Shown here piece after piece: positions 1-6,923 of a stretch of DNA of 22,816 nt. The position numbers and the translations under genes were made by a program. This DNA comes from a virus. The notes beneath the pieces are model-generated. The model searched no databases. It was not told the DNA's origin and worked only from the letters and a program-made list of their open reading frames with translations. The DNA is taken from the IMG/VR virus record IMGVR_UViG_3300030329_002746, positions 1 through 22,816 of that record. One strand, given 5' to 3'. Numbering within the stretch: position 1 is the stretch's first letter; each line of letters begins with the position of its first letter.

Positions 1-127
1 AGCCAGCCAGTGACCCCTGACCCCACGGGTAACTGAACAGGACATGGCCTAACGGATCAGCATAATACTGGCTTATGTCCGTAGCGAGCTGGTCATCAAG
101 GTGGAGGGCGTTAGACGATTGGCTCAT
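1..127 (-). CDS. Terminase large subunit, N-terminal part (runs off the left edge)
   Basis: The frame opens with ATG at 127 and stays open to the window edge, giving 42 residues. They include the stretch YYADPLGHVLFSYPWG, which resembles the region before the ATPase domain at the N-terminus of phage terminase large subunits. The full protein would be the ATP-driven motor and nuclease that packages DNA into the prohead. The ATPase and nuclease motifs lie outside the window. Its start overlaps the upstream zinc-knuckle gene by 17 bases, and no clear Shine-Dalgarno site precedes it, so translation is probably coupled. Finding it at the end of an operon that carries a terminase small subunit-like gene supports the call. 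The start codon is the least certain part. Confidence 0.68.
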   Translation of the reverse strand, partial: MSQSSNALHLDDQLATDISQYYADPLGHVLFSYPWGQGSLAG

Positions 128-338
128 AACTATGATGCGTATTGTGTGCCGTTGGATGAAGACCGTCGCAGGCAGACGCCGGGTGGTGAGGGTCAACGCT
201 GTTCACAGTCTCCTTAGCACCGCACCGCTTACAGATTTGCATAGACCCGGACCCCGGAGCAGGCGGCCCCCACTCGTGAGCTGTCGGTGTCTGACTAGAC
301 GGATGCCCTGCCGCTGCGTACAGATCGCGTTGCGACAT
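111..338 (-). CDS. Small zinc-knuckle-like protein of unknown function
   Basis: A 75-residue frame starts with ATG at 338, four bases after the stop of the lysine-rich gene, and ends inside the start of the terminase large subunit gene. The second half has a CKRC pair followed by a third cysteine (ASACDGLHP), with several histidines after it, as in small phage zinc-binding proteins. The first half is rich in Ser, Pro and Gly and gives no fold clue. An internal ATG at 242 (MQICKRC) could be the true start, leaving a 43-residue knuckle. I see no strong ribosome binding site for either start. The position in the packaging operon suggests a structural or packaging accessory role, but this is only inferred. 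Confidence 0.5.
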   Translation of the reverse strand: MSQRDLYAAAGHPSSQTPTAHEWGPPAPGSGSMQICKRCGAKETVNSVDPHHPASACDGLHPTAHNTHHSYEPIV

Positions 339-342
339 GCCG

Positions 343-441
343 CTAGTACCCACCACGCCGCTTAGACGACGCTGCCTTAGCACCTGCCTTCTTCGGCGCT
401 GGTTTCTTTTTAACACTGGTCATCTTCTTAGGCTTCTTCAT
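343..441 (-). CDS. 32-residue lysine/arginine-rich basic protein
   Basis: This short gene starts at 441 with an ATGA overlap on the stop of the terminase small subunit gene, the usual sign of coupled translation. The product begins MKKPKKMTSVKKKPAPKK and ends SSKRRGGY. About 13 of 32 residues are Lys or Arg, with Ala, Pro and Ser between them. Such tails and small proteins bind DNA or RNA without a fold. It sits between the small and large terminase genes, so a DNA-condensing or packaging accessory role is plausible but unproven. It falls below the usual gene-caller length limit. The start overlap is the main reason for accepting it. Confidence 0.55.
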   Translation of the reverse strand: MKKPKKMTSVKKKPAPKKAGAKAASSKRRGGY

Positions 442-1274
442 TTCACACTCCCATCTGCCTCTTCCAAAGCAAGCAACGTCTCGCGCAAGTCGGCAGGATC
501 ACGACAGGTTCTCAGTCTCACAACATTGTCGCGCCCTTCTTTCAAGCGCTCCTCCAGTTGCGTTACGTTGACGTTCAGGTTCTCCGACTTGGACGCTGGT
601 ATCAGATCCCCTAGTTTCGCTTTCGCCATAATCGCGTTTGTCATAGCGTTGGGTTGGTCAGTCTCTTTCGCCAGAGCCTGAGCTTCTTCCAGCTCATGTA
701 TCAGCTTCTCCACTGTCAATCCTATCTGCTCAACTGCAGGCTTCCTTAACTCTGCAATCCTTAGTGCGATCTTAGTATCCGCCACGAGTTTGGCACTGTT
801 CACATGGATGCTGTTCGCCTGCATCTTGGATGCGTCATATGCCTCGCGATAAGCATCACTCTGATTAACGCCACTCGCCACGAGCTGAGCAAACTTCTCC
901 TGCTTCGGTGTCAGTGCCTTTGTCTTTACCTCTTCATCATCCAAGCGTTTCGTCCCCGGTTTCAATCCGCCTGCGCCTCCGACATTCTGGTTTGTTAAAT
1001 TCTCAAGACCAAACTTTTCAATGGTCACCTTCTCCTCGGCGTAGGCTTCCTTCTGTGTCTCGTGCCAAGACAGGACGACAGCCTGTGGTTTAAAACCAGC
1101 AGCCTCTATCTCTTCAAACCTCTTAACCTTAGCAGGGTTCTTCCGAGCATCAATCGGCGCTCTCTTGAAATGCTGGAAGCGACGTGCAGATGATCCCTTA
1201 CCAATATAAAAGGGACCGAAGGTGTCTGGCCTTGGGTCTAGGATCGCATACACATAATGTTTTTTGTCACTCAT
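438..1274 (-). CDS. Terminase small subunit-like protein with N-terminal GIY-YIG nuclease domain
   Basis: The product has 278 residues. Residues 1-100 look like a GIY-YIG nuclease of the COG3680 type: YVYAILDPR near residue 7, FYIGKG near 22-27, an arginine near 31, a conserved glutamate near 80 and a closing LTNQNVGG near 93-100. After an acidic linker, residues 121-185 (LTPKQEKFAQLVASGVNQSDAYREAYD and on) resemble the helix-turn-helix part of Terminase_2 small subunits, which bind the packaging site. The C-terminus is helical and charged. ATG at 1274 is preferred over the longer frame to 1310 because it overlaps the upstream stop by 8 bases (ATGAGTGA). The terminase large subunit follows two small genes later. 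The fusion could nick or cut DNA at the packaging site, or act on competing DNA; neither is shown here. Confidence 0.75.
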   Translation of the reverse strand: MSDKKHYVYAILDPRPDTFGPFYIGKGSSARRFQHFKRAPIDARKNPAKVKRFEEIEAAGFKPQAVVLSWHETQKEAYAEEKVTIEKFGLENLTNQNVGGAGGLKPGTKRLDDEEVKTKALTPKQEKFAQLVASGVNQSDAYREAYDASKMQANSIHVNSAKLVADTKIALRIAELRKPAVEQIGLTVEKLIHELEEAQALAKETDQPNAMTNAIMAKAKLGDLIPASKSENLNVNVTQLEERLKEGRDNVVRLRTCRDPADLRETLLALEEADGSVK

Positions 1275-1602
1275 TTTTTGACAATAGCCCAGCTTTACCA
1301 AAAAGGTCAACTAAGGTCTCCTCCTCCAGCACATAGATACGTCGATGCCGATCCTGTTTCAGAACAAGCATGTCGTTCACGTCATCCTGATCCAATGCGT
1401 CGTATAAAAATTTGAACCCGCTCTTCTTTCGCTTGGCCTCCACCACATAAGGGCCGAGCTTGATGTCCCCCGCAAGATCGTCAGAGTAATGCTTATAAGC
1501 TCCGCTGGATAACACCCGTTGAACTTCGGCCCCTTGCTCTTTCCAAAACTGGGTGCAAGACCTCTCCAGTTCGTATCCCCGCTTTCGATTTCTGTTCGTC
1601 AA
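1267..1602 (-). CDS. Hjc-like PD-(D/E)XK nuclease (putative Holliday junction resolvase)
   Basis: The product has 111 residues, close to archaeal Hjc-type resolvases and small phage PD-(D/E)XK nucleases. The N-terminal RGYELE supplies the helix glutamate near residue 12. AGDIKL supplies the metal-binding aspartate near residue 46, and VVEAKRK supplies the ExK pair near 54-56. Together these form the expected catalytic core. It would cut branched DNA made during replication and recombination before packaging. The start is TTG at 1602, with AGGAG seven bases upstream and no good ATG nearby. The gene ends inside the next one by 8 bases, so the two are probably translated together. The exact substrate cannot be told from sequence. 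Confidence 0.7.
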   Translation of the reverse strand: MTNRNRKRGYELERSCTQFWKEQGAEVQRVLSSGAYKHYSDDLAGDIKLGPYVVEAKRKKSGFKFLYDALDQDDVNDMLVLKQDRHRRIYVLEEETLVDLFGKAGLLSKNE

Positions 1603-1669: not shown

Positions 1670-1838
1670 GCAGATCAAGCAGATAGATAACCCATTGAAA
1701 TCATTATGCAAATCCTACCTTCTGCCTATCTGCTGCTCTATCTGCCTAAGCAGATTGTAACCCATTGATATACATACATAATATGCCAAGCAGATCAATG
1801 ATCTGCCCATCATCTGCTGACCTGAAATACCCATCTGC
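1670..1838. repeat. Cluster of nine GCAGAT/ATCTGC repeats (candidate origin or control site)
   Basis: GCAGAT occurs at 1670, 1680, 1750 and 1790, and its complement ATCTGC at 1728, 1740, 1801, 1812 and 1833. Two pairs form perfect inverted repeats: ATCTGC-CTAA-GCAGAT (1740-1755) and GCAGATCA-A-TGATCTGC (1790-1806). TAACCCATTGA is repeated directly at 1688-1698 and 1758-1768. The stretch 1756-1789 is AT-rich. Most of the cluster is non-coding; the last copies lie in the final codons of the helicase gene. Iterons with an AT-rich stretch beside a replicative helicase gene fit a replication origin. A repressor site or packaging signal is also possible. Confidence 0.55.
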
Positions 1839-3969
1839 CTTTGCTCTTTTTTCTCTCGTTCAGGACAAGGCGAACCTGCCCATCCTCGGTGTCTATCGTC
1901 TCGCCAAACATACCAAGCAACTCCTGCTTGTGGCTCTCCTGCAGCTTGGACGCATCGGTCAACCATAAGGGGCTGCCCTTAAGCACCCTATGCACCTCAG
2001 CCACCTCGAAGCTACCCTCGCCCAAGCATCCGATAATCTGCAACGCCAGCTCTACCGCTCGCTCAATGTCAGCGTTCTCATAGAGCAGAGAGTTTCCAGC
2101 TTCATGCTCTGTCGATAACCTAGACACACCAATCTCATATCCCTCTGGCAATTCCTCTCCAACCAGCTCATAAACAATAGGCTCAGTCGGTTTGCCCTCA
2201 CGAATTTTCCCCGTGTCCAGCACCACCCAGCGCGACAGCTCACTGCTCAGATACTTCTCCTTCCACTCCTTCCTGCGCTGCCTCTCCCTCGGCATCCAGT
2301 TCGCGAGCGTGAAGCCACAGTCCAGCGCCGAATAGATCGCACCACTGCCACGCCATGCGGAAGCGTCACCGCGATACCAGTCATTGTCCTTTGTTCGATC
2401 CTTCGGCGTGTGGTGAGCGTGCAGCACCGCCGACCCCGTCAGCGAAGTGATATGCAGAAACGCCTTCGTCAGCATGGCTGCAGACGTCGCACTGTTCTCG
2501 TCCATCGCATCCGATAGCGTGACGTAGGGATCGAAGATGATAAGCTGCGCTTCGATGCGCTTGGCCTGAGCGACGATACGGGCAATGTTCTCCGCATCCA
2601 ATTCAGGATTGGAAATCTCGTTCAATGCCACCAGCCTGAACGTCCCCTCCGTCTTCGGCCTGACCGAGATCACTTCTCCGTCTTTAACTCCGTAGTGCTG
2701 CGCTGCCGCCTTGATCCTGCGCTGGATGTCTTGGCAGTGTTCCTCGTTCGCGACCCAAAGTACGCTGGTACGTTTGCATGGCGGCAAGCCAAGTGGCTCA
2801 GTATCTCCAGAACTAATCGCCGCACAGAGTGCCGCCAACCATCTTGTCTTTCCGACATTCGATGTCCCTCCTAAACTGGAGATGCCGCCCTGTGGCAGCA
2901 TCCCTTCAATCAACCATTCAATATCAGGCAGTCGCTTCTCTCGCAGCTCACCTACTGTAAAAGTTTCAAACTCTTCTTGCGGGTCACTCTCTTCTATCGC
3001 CTCAGCAAGCGCCCGAATTCTTTCGGGACGTGTCTCCTGCTGAGGCCCAATGGGGCGGCGGAGTAATGCCTCCTCATTGACGAAGCTCTCTCCGTCGCCG
3101 AGGATCAGCTCCTGCTCGTGATCCGTCAGCCAATTCTCTGGCGAATGTTTTTCTACCGCACTCTCGACTAAGTCAGGTATCTTTGAGTTGCGATCCAGCC
3201 AATCGTGATGCCTCTTATGAGAAGGGTCTGACGCCACGCTCTCCTGCATGATAGCCTGCAGTACCTCCATCTGTTGCTGCTTGTCCAGATACACTCCGTC
3301 CTCGTCGCGTCTAGTCGGAAGCCTGTAACTGAGGCTACGCAGCGCTGGGTATAAGTCACTGGCATCTAGTATCGATTGAATGAGTTCCTCGTCAGTGGCC
3401 TGATTCCAGCTCGACAGCGTCACCGTCCTCCCGTCGCGCTCTATCGAGTTGAGCAGCTCGACAGGAAACTCCTTGATCGAAGCCGTACTTTCCTCGACGT
3501 AGTTTCCAGTAGGGGGCCAGCAAACATATCCGCCCTGCCCTTTTATATCGACGCCGTTCCTGAGCTGAGCAGGCAACCTACGCAGCGGGTTGTACTTGTA
3601 CAAAAAATGTAACCCGCCTGAGCGGGTTCGATGGATGCGGGTCTCGCCTAAAGTTTTTCTGTTGGCCTCAAGCCACGCCTCCACTTCCTCGCCCTTATAA
3701 AGATCAGCGTCCACGCAGACCAAGCCGCTCGGCTCGCCCATCGGCACGGCAATCTCCCGCGCTCTCGGATGGCTGAACAACTTTTTAATTTGCTTGGGAT
3801 CGCGTGTCGCGATCTTGTATCCGCCCTCGCCCTTGCCTACGCCTAACTCTGCGTTAGACCAGACGGGGAGTTTATCGGCTGTCGGAAAAACTGGATAGTG
3901 CTTGGCTACCTTCAACGCAGCCTTGATAAGCAAAGCGTTTTTTGGTATCTCTTCTTTTGTCGATGGCAT
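1810..3969 (-). CDS. Bifunctional primase-polymerase / RepA-like replicative helicase
   Basis: The product has 719 residues. The N-terminal 200 or so resemble an archaeo-eukaryotic-type primase-polymerase: PVFPTADKLPVW near the start, the metal-binding pair in VCVDADLY near residue 85, and GGLHFLYKY near 118. The C-terminal half is a RecA/RepA-type hexameric helicase (AAA_25-like), with Walker A GGTSNVGKT near 369, Walker B LIIFDPYV near 477, and HAHHTPKD near 515. It should prime and unwind DNA at the fork. The frame extends to a GTG at 4011, but ATG at 3969 has GGAG six bases before it, in a context (ATGGAGAAAGTAATG) like the shared start module of the rightward genes. It is transcribed away from the polymerase and other replication genes. 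Confidence 0.85.
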   Translation of the reverse strand: MPSTKEEIPKNALLIKAALKVAKHYPVFPTADKLPVWSNAELGVGKGEGGYKIATRDPKQIKKLFSHPRAREIAVPMGEPSGLVCVDADLYKGEEVEAWLEANRKTLGETRIHRTRSGGLHFLYKYNPLRRLPAQLRNGVDIKGQGGYVCWPPTGNYVEESTASIKEFPVELLNSIERDGRTVTLSSWNQATDEELIQSILDASDLYPALRSLSYRLPTRRDEDGVYLDKQQQMEVLQAIMQESVASDPSHKRHHDWLDRNSKIPDLVESAVEKHSPENWLTDHEQELILGDGESFVNEEALLRRPIGPQQETRPERIRALAEAIEESDPQEEFETFTVGELREKRLPDIEWLIEGMLPQGGISSLGGTSNVGKTRWLAALCAAISSGDTEPLGLPPCKRTSVLWVANEEHCQDIQRRIKAAAQHYGVKDGEVISVRPKTEGTFRLVALNEISNPELDAENIARIVAQAKRIEAQLIIFDPYVTLSDAMDENSATSAAMLTKAFLHITSLTGSAVLHAHHTPKDRTKDNDWYRGDASAWRGSGAIYSALDCGFTLANWMPRERQRRKEWKEKYLSSELSRWVVLDTGKIREGKPTEPIVYELVGEELPEGYEIGVSRLSTEHEAGNSLLYENADIERAVELALQIIGCLGEGSFEVAEVHRVLKGSPLWLTDASKLQESHKQELLGMFGETIDTEDGQVRLVLNERKKSKGRWVFQVSR
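3308..3317 (+). repeat. CGTCTAGTCG copy within the helicase gene
   Basis: First of five exact copies (plus strand reading). It lies inside the coding sequence, where the minus-strand frame reads T-R-R with a rare AGA codon. A related copy with one mismatch is at 292-301. Confidence 0.5.
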
Positions 3970-4032
3970 TACTTTCTCCATTCCTGATGTTATCGATAGT
4001 CGGGGCAGCACACCCCGCGACCTTGAAAAACT

Positions 4033-5990: not shown

Positions 5991-6025
5991 GGCGGGGTGG
6001 TGTCCCGCCGAAACCCCTCCGGGGG
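5991..6025 (+). promoter_or_regulatory. Tandem intergenic hairpins before the ArdC-like gene
   Basis: GGCGGG (5991-5996) pairs with CCCGCC (6004-6009). ACCCC (6012-6016) pairs with GGGGT (6021-6025) around a TCCG loop, which closes as the very stable C(UNCG)G tetraloop in RNA. No U-run follows. They may protect the 3' end of the upstream message or set a cleavage point before the next start module at 6042. Confidence 0.5.
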
Positions 6026-6053
6026 TCTAGTCAACCAAACAATGGAGGTCACA

Positions 6054-6923
6054 ATGGCTAAAGAAAAATTCGACGCATATCAGGTAGTAACCGATCAGAT
6101 CGTAAAGGCTCTGGAAGCAGGAACCCGCCCTTGGACGAAAAGCTGGGCAGGCGGGTCAGGCGGCCTGCCCCTACGCCACAACGGCAAGCCTTATTCGGGC
6201 GTCAACATCTTGATCCTCGGCCTGTCAGGTTTCACCAACCCTTACTGGATGACGTTTAAGCAGGCGCAGGAGTATGGCGGCAAAGTCCGCAAGGGTTCGA
6301 CGGCAACGAAGATCGTCTTCTTCAAGCCCCTCAAGATTGAGGACAAGGTAACCAACGAAGAGAAGAGCATCCCCCTACTCCGCACTTACAACGTCTTCAA
6401 TGCCGAGCAGATCGAAGGGTTGCCTGAGCGGTTCTATCCCGGCGAAGAAGTTCGTAACCAAGGCGAGCGCATCGAAGCTGCCGAGGCTTTCTTTGCTGGC
6501 AGGACGAACCTTGTTCACGAGGGTGGGCAAGCGTACTACCGTCCGTCGCTCGACCAGATCGTCATGCCTGCGTTCGAGAAGTTCGATGACCCCGAGGCGT
6601 ATTACAGCACGCTCTCTCACGAGTTCATCCATTGGACGGGTCACAAGTCCAGACTGGACCGTGACCTGAAGACGAGCTACGGCACAAAAGACTATGCTCG
6701 CGAGGAGTTGGTTGCCGAGCTGGGGTCAGCCTTCGTCATGCACACCCTCGGCCTAAGCGCCGAGCCACGAGAAGACCACGCCGAGTACCTAGCCGAATGG
6801 CTGAAGGTATTGAAGGAAGACAAACGGGCGATCTTCCGCGCTTCGGCAGCAGCCCAGAAGGCGGCAGATTTTCTGTCCGCCAACGCAAACCCTGAAACTG
6901 AAACCAAGAAGGAGGCAGCCTAA
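6054..6923 (+). CDS. ArdC-like antirestriction protein with zinc metallopeptidase domain
   Basis: The product has 289 residues. The N-terminal 130 match the ArdC single-strand DNA-binding domain: YQVVTDQIVKALEAG, PWTKSW, GKPYSGVNILIL, YWMTFKQAQEYGG and a run ending YNVFNAEQIEGLP. The C-terminal half is a zincin-type peptidase-like domain with HEFIHWTGH near residues 189-197, the HExxH zinc motif, and a downstream glutamate in AREELVAELGSAF as third ligand candidate. ArdC proteins from plasmids protect incoming DNA from restriction; phage copies probably do the same on entry. The start at 6054 is in the shared ATGGAGGTCAC module. The stop overlaps the next start as TAATG, so translation continues into the small acidic gene downstream. 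Confidence 0.8.
   Translation: MAKEKFDAYQVVTDQIVKALEAGTRPWTKSWAGGSGGLPLRHNGKPYSGVNILILGLSGFTNPYWMTFKQAQEYGGKVRKGSTATKIVFFKPLKIEDKVTNEEKSIPLLRTYNVFNAEQIEGLPERFYPGEEVRNQGERIEAAEAFFAGRTNLVHEGGQAYYRPSLDQIVMPAFEKFDDPEAYYSTLSHEFIHWTGHKSRLDRDLKTSYGTKDYAREELVAELGSAFVMHTLGLSAEPREDHAEYLAEWLKVLKEDKRAIFRASAAAQKAADFLSANANPETETKKEAA

Follow-up and report, generated by a model that had tools for sequence, protein, structure and literature searches.

A single in-frame gene, found in at least about 40 IMG/VR contigs of uncultured phages from many metagenomes, joins a GIY-YIG nuclease domain to a small terminase subunit (TerS). By the textbook account, phage packaging divides the labour between TerS, which recognizes the DNA, and the large terminase subunit (TerL), which cleaves and pumps it; this division no longer holds where a widespread TerS carries a conserved nuclease domain. 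With a nuclease fused to it, the DNA-recognizing subunit of the motor is probably a DNA-cutting one as well. Both protein families are known, and their widespread, conserved combination in one protein is new: a literature search found no paper that describes a GIY-YIG–TerS fusion, although single database entries may exist. The fusion links the COG3680/LEM-3 GIY-YIG family, which includes an animal branch cutter and a bacterial anti-phage restriction enzyme, to viral DNA packaging, and it offers a one-protein test of the role in packaging of auxiliary nucleases, whether terminase-side HNH or GIY-YIG.

Architecture and spread of the fusion

The DNA analysed here (the window) is a stretch of 22,816 nucleotides from an IMG/VR virus record. 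Its fusion gene (Table 1) is a single open reading frame with no internal stop codons that runs on the minus strand from an ATG start at 1274 to a TGA stop at 440–438. An earlier note on this DNA had read it as one gene combining a GIY-YIG domain with a Terminase_2-like domain, and domain searches of both halves agree. Pfam PF22945 (LEM-3_GIY-YIG) matches residues 22–101 in the N-terminal half (E = 7.5e-13). In the C-terminal half, Pfam PF03592 (Terminase_2) matches residues 121–209 (E = 4.4e-6; 27.8 bits, just above the cut-off of 26.1) and the TerS family PHROG_51 matches the same half of the protein (E = 1.2e-16).

Table 1. Positions of the fusion gene, its parts and the neighbouring genes in the window
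Feature	Position	Strand	Basis or remark
TerL start, cut by window edge	1..127	-	Whole gene in relative L002
Small zinc-ribbon-like ORF, 75 aa, HEWGPPAPGSGSMQICKRCGAKET	111..338	-	C-x2-C-G
Lys-rich ORF, 32 aa	343..441	-	Read from sequence; ATGA overlap with terS stop
GIY-YIG–TerS fusion gene, 278 aa	438..1274	-	Same in-frame architecture in at least about 40 contigs
TerS helical core and C-terminal helices, residues ~178–278	441..742	-	AF2; Pam5 profile match
TerS helix-turn-helix (HTH) DNA-binding region, residues ~121–177	743..914	-	PF03592, AF2 helices; swapped between L003 and L004
Flexible linker, residues ~103–119	917..965	-	AF2 pLDDT <50 over 103–118
LEM-3/COG3680-type GIY-YIG nuclease domain, N-terminal, residues ~1–105	960..1274	-	PF22945, CMoRE profile match, AF2
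Hjc/RusA-like resolvase gene	1267..1602	-	phrog_244 E 2.6e-11; PDDEXK_15 and Hjc weak, below cut-off
Primase-helicase (Prim-Pol + AAA_25), upstream in gene row	1810..4011	-	Profile match

The same fusion was sought in related phages and found in the contigs counted above; because it recurs in frame across all of them, a frameshift or assembly error between the halves is ruled out. From these contigs we aligned 25 non-redundant fusion proteins, of which all match PF22945 and 17 match PF03592 at E ≤ 0.01. TerL follows the fusion on the same strand in 35 of 38 contigs, and the other three end before TerL would begin. In near-complete contigs of 40–44 kb, wherever a Terminase_2 match was found there was one per contig, and it was always the fusion. 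The distance to TerL in the window, 311 nt past the terS stop, falls within the 330 bases given in the earlier note, and the packaging role proposed there is made credible by the sole TerS match, the adjoining TerL and the conserved operon.

The recurring gene row consists of primase-helicase, resolvase, GIY-YIG–TerS, small ORFs, TerL and portal. The last 8 nt of the resolvase gene overlap the start of the fusion gene. This slot holds a Hjc/RusA-like resolvase in the window and in L003, L004, L015, L103 and L106, and a RuvC-like one in L115, L119, L121, L122, L126, L150 and L020. Downstream of the fusion, K-rich ORFs similar to that in the window are present in relatives, and the zinc-ribbon-like ORF, which has no Pfam or PHROG match, is conserved directly before TerL in most relatives. 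Only the first ~42 codons of TerL lie inside the window; a 96%-identical contig (L002) has the full gene, and the full-length TerL of a further relative (L004) matches phrog_2 (E = 1.6e-39).

Across 50,697 phage genomes, no match over more than 80% of the length of the fusion was found, except for a single protein of Erwinia jumbo phage pEa_SNUABM_22. This only isolate match at that coverage of a fused query consists of the GIY-YIG domain alone, has no TerS profile and has no terminase annotated nearby. We also considered Bordetella phage IFTN as an unfused precursor and rejected it, as no GIY-YIG domain is encoded by the ORF ahead of its terS and the long BLAST match is accidental. One contig scan of bacterial and archaeal genomes yielded no locus with both halves; the bacterial GIY-YIG matches that we inspected were CMoRE-like or other stand-alone proteins.

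The AF2 model of the TerS half, which reaches a pLDDT of 84 when modelled alone, has three short helices (residues 123–133, 138–145 and 153–165) followed by a helical core, in the order expected for TerS. The Pam5 small terminase (PDB 21di) matches profile positions 114–227 (E = 2.6e-12), and fold matches in BFVD, which are predicted viral models, are annotated as terminase small subunit (E = 2.7e-6). A Foldseek search of the TerS half against PDB gave no significant match (PaP3 and NV1 TerS at E of 2–4), and the TerS assignment therefore rests on profiles, synteny and the absence of another TerS match. The C-terminal half thus resembles Terminase_2 TerS proteins (PF03592), including Pam5, in having an HTH and a helical core with TerL adjoining, whereas plain Terminase_2 TerS has no N-terminal nuclease domain.

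Conservation and relatives of the nuclease half

The tyrosines, arginine, glutamate and asparagine of a GIY-YIG domain, which the earlier note had picked out, are all present (Y7/Y9, Y23-I24-G25, R31, E81 and N95). All 25 fusions in the alignment share Y9, Y23, G25, K26, R31, K49, E81 and N95 without variation. In measurable close pairs, the dN/dS of the nuclease half (Nei–Gojobori) is mostly 0.03–0.11, reaching 0.20 in one, and is usually below that of the TerS half in the same pairs. These comparisons show strong purifying selection on the nuclease half, and it looks active. That TerL retains its own nuclease residues would suit a reading in which catalysis has been lost and the GIY-YIG domain only gives TerS an additional module for DNA binding or regulation; given the invariant catalytic residues and the mostly very low dN/dS of the nuclease half, we consider this highly improbable.

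The TerL nuclease aspartates are conserved in both the fused and the plain groups, with a Ser at one column in the weakly alignable TerL of L121. We therefore rejected the idea that the GIY-YIG domain rescues a lost TerL nuclease; TerL can presumably cut by itself, and the GIY-YIG domain would act in addition.

The AF2 model of the nuclease half has the order strand-strand-helix-strand-helix. The nearest solved GIY-YIG structures are those of CMoRE/PD-T4-3 (9u75 and 9u7u; profile E = 6e-23), and the Foldseek match to 9u75 has a probability of 1.00 with an E value of only 0.015. The PADLOC and PDB matches of the fusion to CMoRE come from its GIY-YIG part. CMoRE/PD-T4-3 is an anti-phage type IV restriction enzyme specific for 5hmC, whose GIY-YIG domain is N-terminal and whose sensor is C-terminal (PMC12923530). 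The fusion shares with it the extra-tyrosine GIYxY-YIG signature (Y7, Y9 and Y23 in the fusion) and the layout of nuclease, linker and targeting domain, but it has Terminase_2 in place of the modification-sensing C-terminal domain, is encoded by phages and lies among packaging genes. The acidic autoinhibitory loop of CMoRE (a DDDD run) is not conserved in the fusions, in which the loop is mostly basic to neutral (0–4 acidic residues per 12–16). Bacteroidales genomes (L183, L188, L192 and L197) encode CMoRE/PD-T4-3-like GIY-YIG proteins with an IIIKTT C-terminal part, and this part is unlike that of the fusion.

With the LEM-3/ANKLE1/COG3680 group (PF22945), the N-terminal half has the profile, the catalytic residues and the predicted fold in common. 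Branched DNA is the specific substrate of the human nuclease ANKLE1/LEM-3 (PMC7610144). Proteins of the LEM-3/ANKLE1 kind, which process such DNA, have ankyrin and LEM domains as partners, whereas the partner domain in the fusion is a small terminase. The earlier note had likened the nuclease to a homing endonuclease. It is indeed a GIY-YIG nuclease, but one of the LEM-3/COG3680/CMoRE type and not clearly of the I-TevI homing type.

A LEM-3-type domain with a branch-specific human relative, encoded directly after and overlapping a resolvase gene, could point to debranching: the GIY-YIG domain would clear branches, flaps and junctions from concatemers en route to TerL, independently of sequence, with TerS as its tether. 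Debranching at the motor would resemble T4 gp49 or T7 gp3. We regard this role as distinctly unlikely. A dedicated Hjc- or RuvC-like resolvase adjoins the fusion in most members, so that plain branch resolution need not be the job of the GIY-YIG domain; a sequence-recognizing HTH would be superfluous as fusion partner; and the substrate that CMoRE, the closest relative of known structure, cuts is modified duplex DNA (PMC12923530).

Exchange of domains among terminases

In phylogenetic analysis the 25 fused GIY-YIG domains are separated from CMoRE and from almost every stand-alone viral GIY-YIG protein, and a single clade of fused domains is not rejected (p-AU = 0.35). Two stand-alone sequences with very long branches (L132 and L151) fall among them without support, and no free-standing close relative occurs among the best 80 GIY-YIG matches. 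For the TerS halves, by contrast, a single clade is rejected (p-AU = 0.00025), with those of L117 and L141 placed among plain TerS. The TerLs beside the fusions form three lineages (a main one, L117, and L105/L121/L141), with 24–33% identity between lineages; the nuclease of L105 is closest to those of the window and L002, although its TerL belongs to another lineage. The grouping of the nucleases, set against the scattered TerS halves and the three TerL lineages, indicates that the nuclease has been joined to, or kept on, different terminases, and that a single nuclease type occurs with no fewer than two TerS lineages and with several of TerL.

Among close relatives, parts of the gene differ in their nucleotide identity. 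The window and L003 are 91% identical in the HTH and 90% identical in the C-terminus but only 56% identical in the GIY-YIG block, whereas L003 and L004 are 93% identical in the GIY-YIG block and 95% identical in the C-terminus but 57% identical in the HTH. Over 80 residues, the C-terminal TerS region has 94–97% amino acid identity among the window, L002, L003 and L004. The swapped GIY-YIG block is bounded at about 1284, close to the start codon, and at about 914, close to residue 120. These identities indicate that close relatives have exchanged the nuclease block and the HTH block independently of each other, a ready-made test of packaging-site specificity.

Separate swapping of the nuclease block is compatible with a homing origin. 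Phage GIY-YIG/T5orf172 homing endonucleases likewise lie near terminase genes and are exchanged among relatives (PMC10448857). They are separate genes, however, whereas the fused domain is an in-frame part of the only TerS and not an independently mobile gene, intron or intein; in further contrast to these homing genes, the best 80 GIY-YIG matches include no free-standing member of the fused group.

The earlier note also proposed that the nuclease is directed against rival phage DNA carrying the same site. As a weapon or homing device, the fusion would cut the terminase region or pac DNA of relatives or satellites infecting the same cell, so as to exclude them or to propagate its own allele by recombination, and would be homing-like and perhaps domesticated. 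Exchange with edges at domain borders fits such a role. HEG-like nucleases have a hot spot upstream of terminases (PMC10448857), and the closest solved relative, CMoRE/PD-T4-3, is an anti-phage enzyme. Since blocks are exchanged and the nuclease is akin to CMoRE, we keep attack or homing as a possible reading, and judge it unlikely. All confidently placed members of the fused group occupy the same TerS position, with none free-standing among those 80 matches, unlike a mobile homing gene; the GIY-YIG domain belongs to the only TerS of the phage and is therefore not dispensable cargo; and the fusion lacks the modification-sensing domain of CMoRE, nor is the acidic autoinhibitory loop conserved. 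A composite of packaging and attack, in which TerS would be a site-specific nuclease with cassette-swapped parts that both designates its own genome for packaging and cleaves the matching packaging region of competitors, is a tentative and somewhat unlikely reading.

Packaging site and accessory nucleases

The closest cultured relatives by TerL are Vibrio phages 1.185.O, 1.021.A and PS25B.1 (~50% identity), which have a plain TerS. Immediately before terS they carry an HNH-like ORF that overlaps it by 4 nt and matches phrog_99 (E = 7e-9 to 2e-5). In the database records these HNH ORFs are annotated only as hypothetical (L093 1-501, L219 115-615 and L221 1905-2423, respectively). The HNH protein of HK97 acts with terminase in cos cleavage (PMC10448857), and HNH proteins of the HK97 gp74 type lie beside terminases, according to the accounts of Kala et al. 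2014 in PMC9611059 and PMC10448857. As far as these accounts go, the fusion resembles the gp74 type in that an extra nuclease is tied to the terminase genes, as it is in the HNH-like ORF before terS of the sister Vibrio phages. The gp74-type nuclease is a separate HNH protein, whereas that of the fusion has a GIY-YIG fold and is a covalent part of TerS. With a GIY-YIG in place of an HNH domain, the likeness to HNH packaging proteins is one of working only. The authors of PMC10448857 treat packaging-HNH and HEG readings as mutually compatible.

We give about an even chance to a nuclease-armed TerS, in which the fusion would assist packaging by an extra cut in phage DNA and be the GIY-YIG counterpart of the HK97-type HNH proteins. 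The C-terminal half, as the only TerS of the phage, would probably form a ring, bind the packaging site of that phage and pass the DNA on to TerL. Through this binding, the GIY-YIG domain on its flexible linker would be kept close to packaging-site DNA, where it may add a nick or a double-strand cut and so help packaging to start or finish. It would thereby take the job that is done by separate HNH proteins beside other terminases. The likeliest mechanism would be one that the earlier note had proposed, site-specific cleavage of the packaging site.

Some results count against this reading. Our searches found no cut site, cos or pac; TerL, with intact nuclease aspartates, can presumably cut unaided; the TerS half has no significant Foldseek match in PDB; and conflict or homing would account equally well for the block swapping. 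The stretch between terS and TerL was considered as a place for a cos or pac site and rejected, since in the window it is filled by the K-rich and zinc-ribbon-like ORFs. Terminal repeats in five near-complete contigs yield circular maps with differing start points, and thus no fixed genome ends were seen. The circular maps agree with headful packaging and permuted ends, or with replicating DNA; they do not call for a site-specific end cut, and they neither prove nor exclude a site-specific first cut.

The intergenic stretch between the primase-helicase and resolvase genes (1603-1809) is 95–100% identical in most 40-nt windows among the window, L002, L003 and L004. It contains seven copies of ATCTGC/GCAGAT, a number reached in 0 of 300 dinucleotide shuffles, and a palindrome, CCCCCTAAAGGGGG, at 1655-1668. 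Other iterons occupy the same slot in other relatives (GTAGCA ×8 in L103, TACTGA ×9 in L106, GGTAGA ×10 in L115, and AACTTGA in L122, L128, L134 and L020), and a CCCCCTAAAGGGGG-like palindrome is present in most fused phages with a different iteron. We rejected this region as the TerS target: its repeated word is unchanged when the HTH or the GIY-YIG block is swapped, and a replication origin is therefore likelier than a TerS site.

Elsewhere in the window, the plus strand encodes an ArdC-like antirestriction protein with ArdcN and MPTase-PolyVal domains (5997-6923). A near-identical strong ribosome-binding leader, GGAGGTCANNATG, precedes eight plus-strand starts (4167, 4444, 4775, 5674, 6044, 7425, 12591 and 14034).
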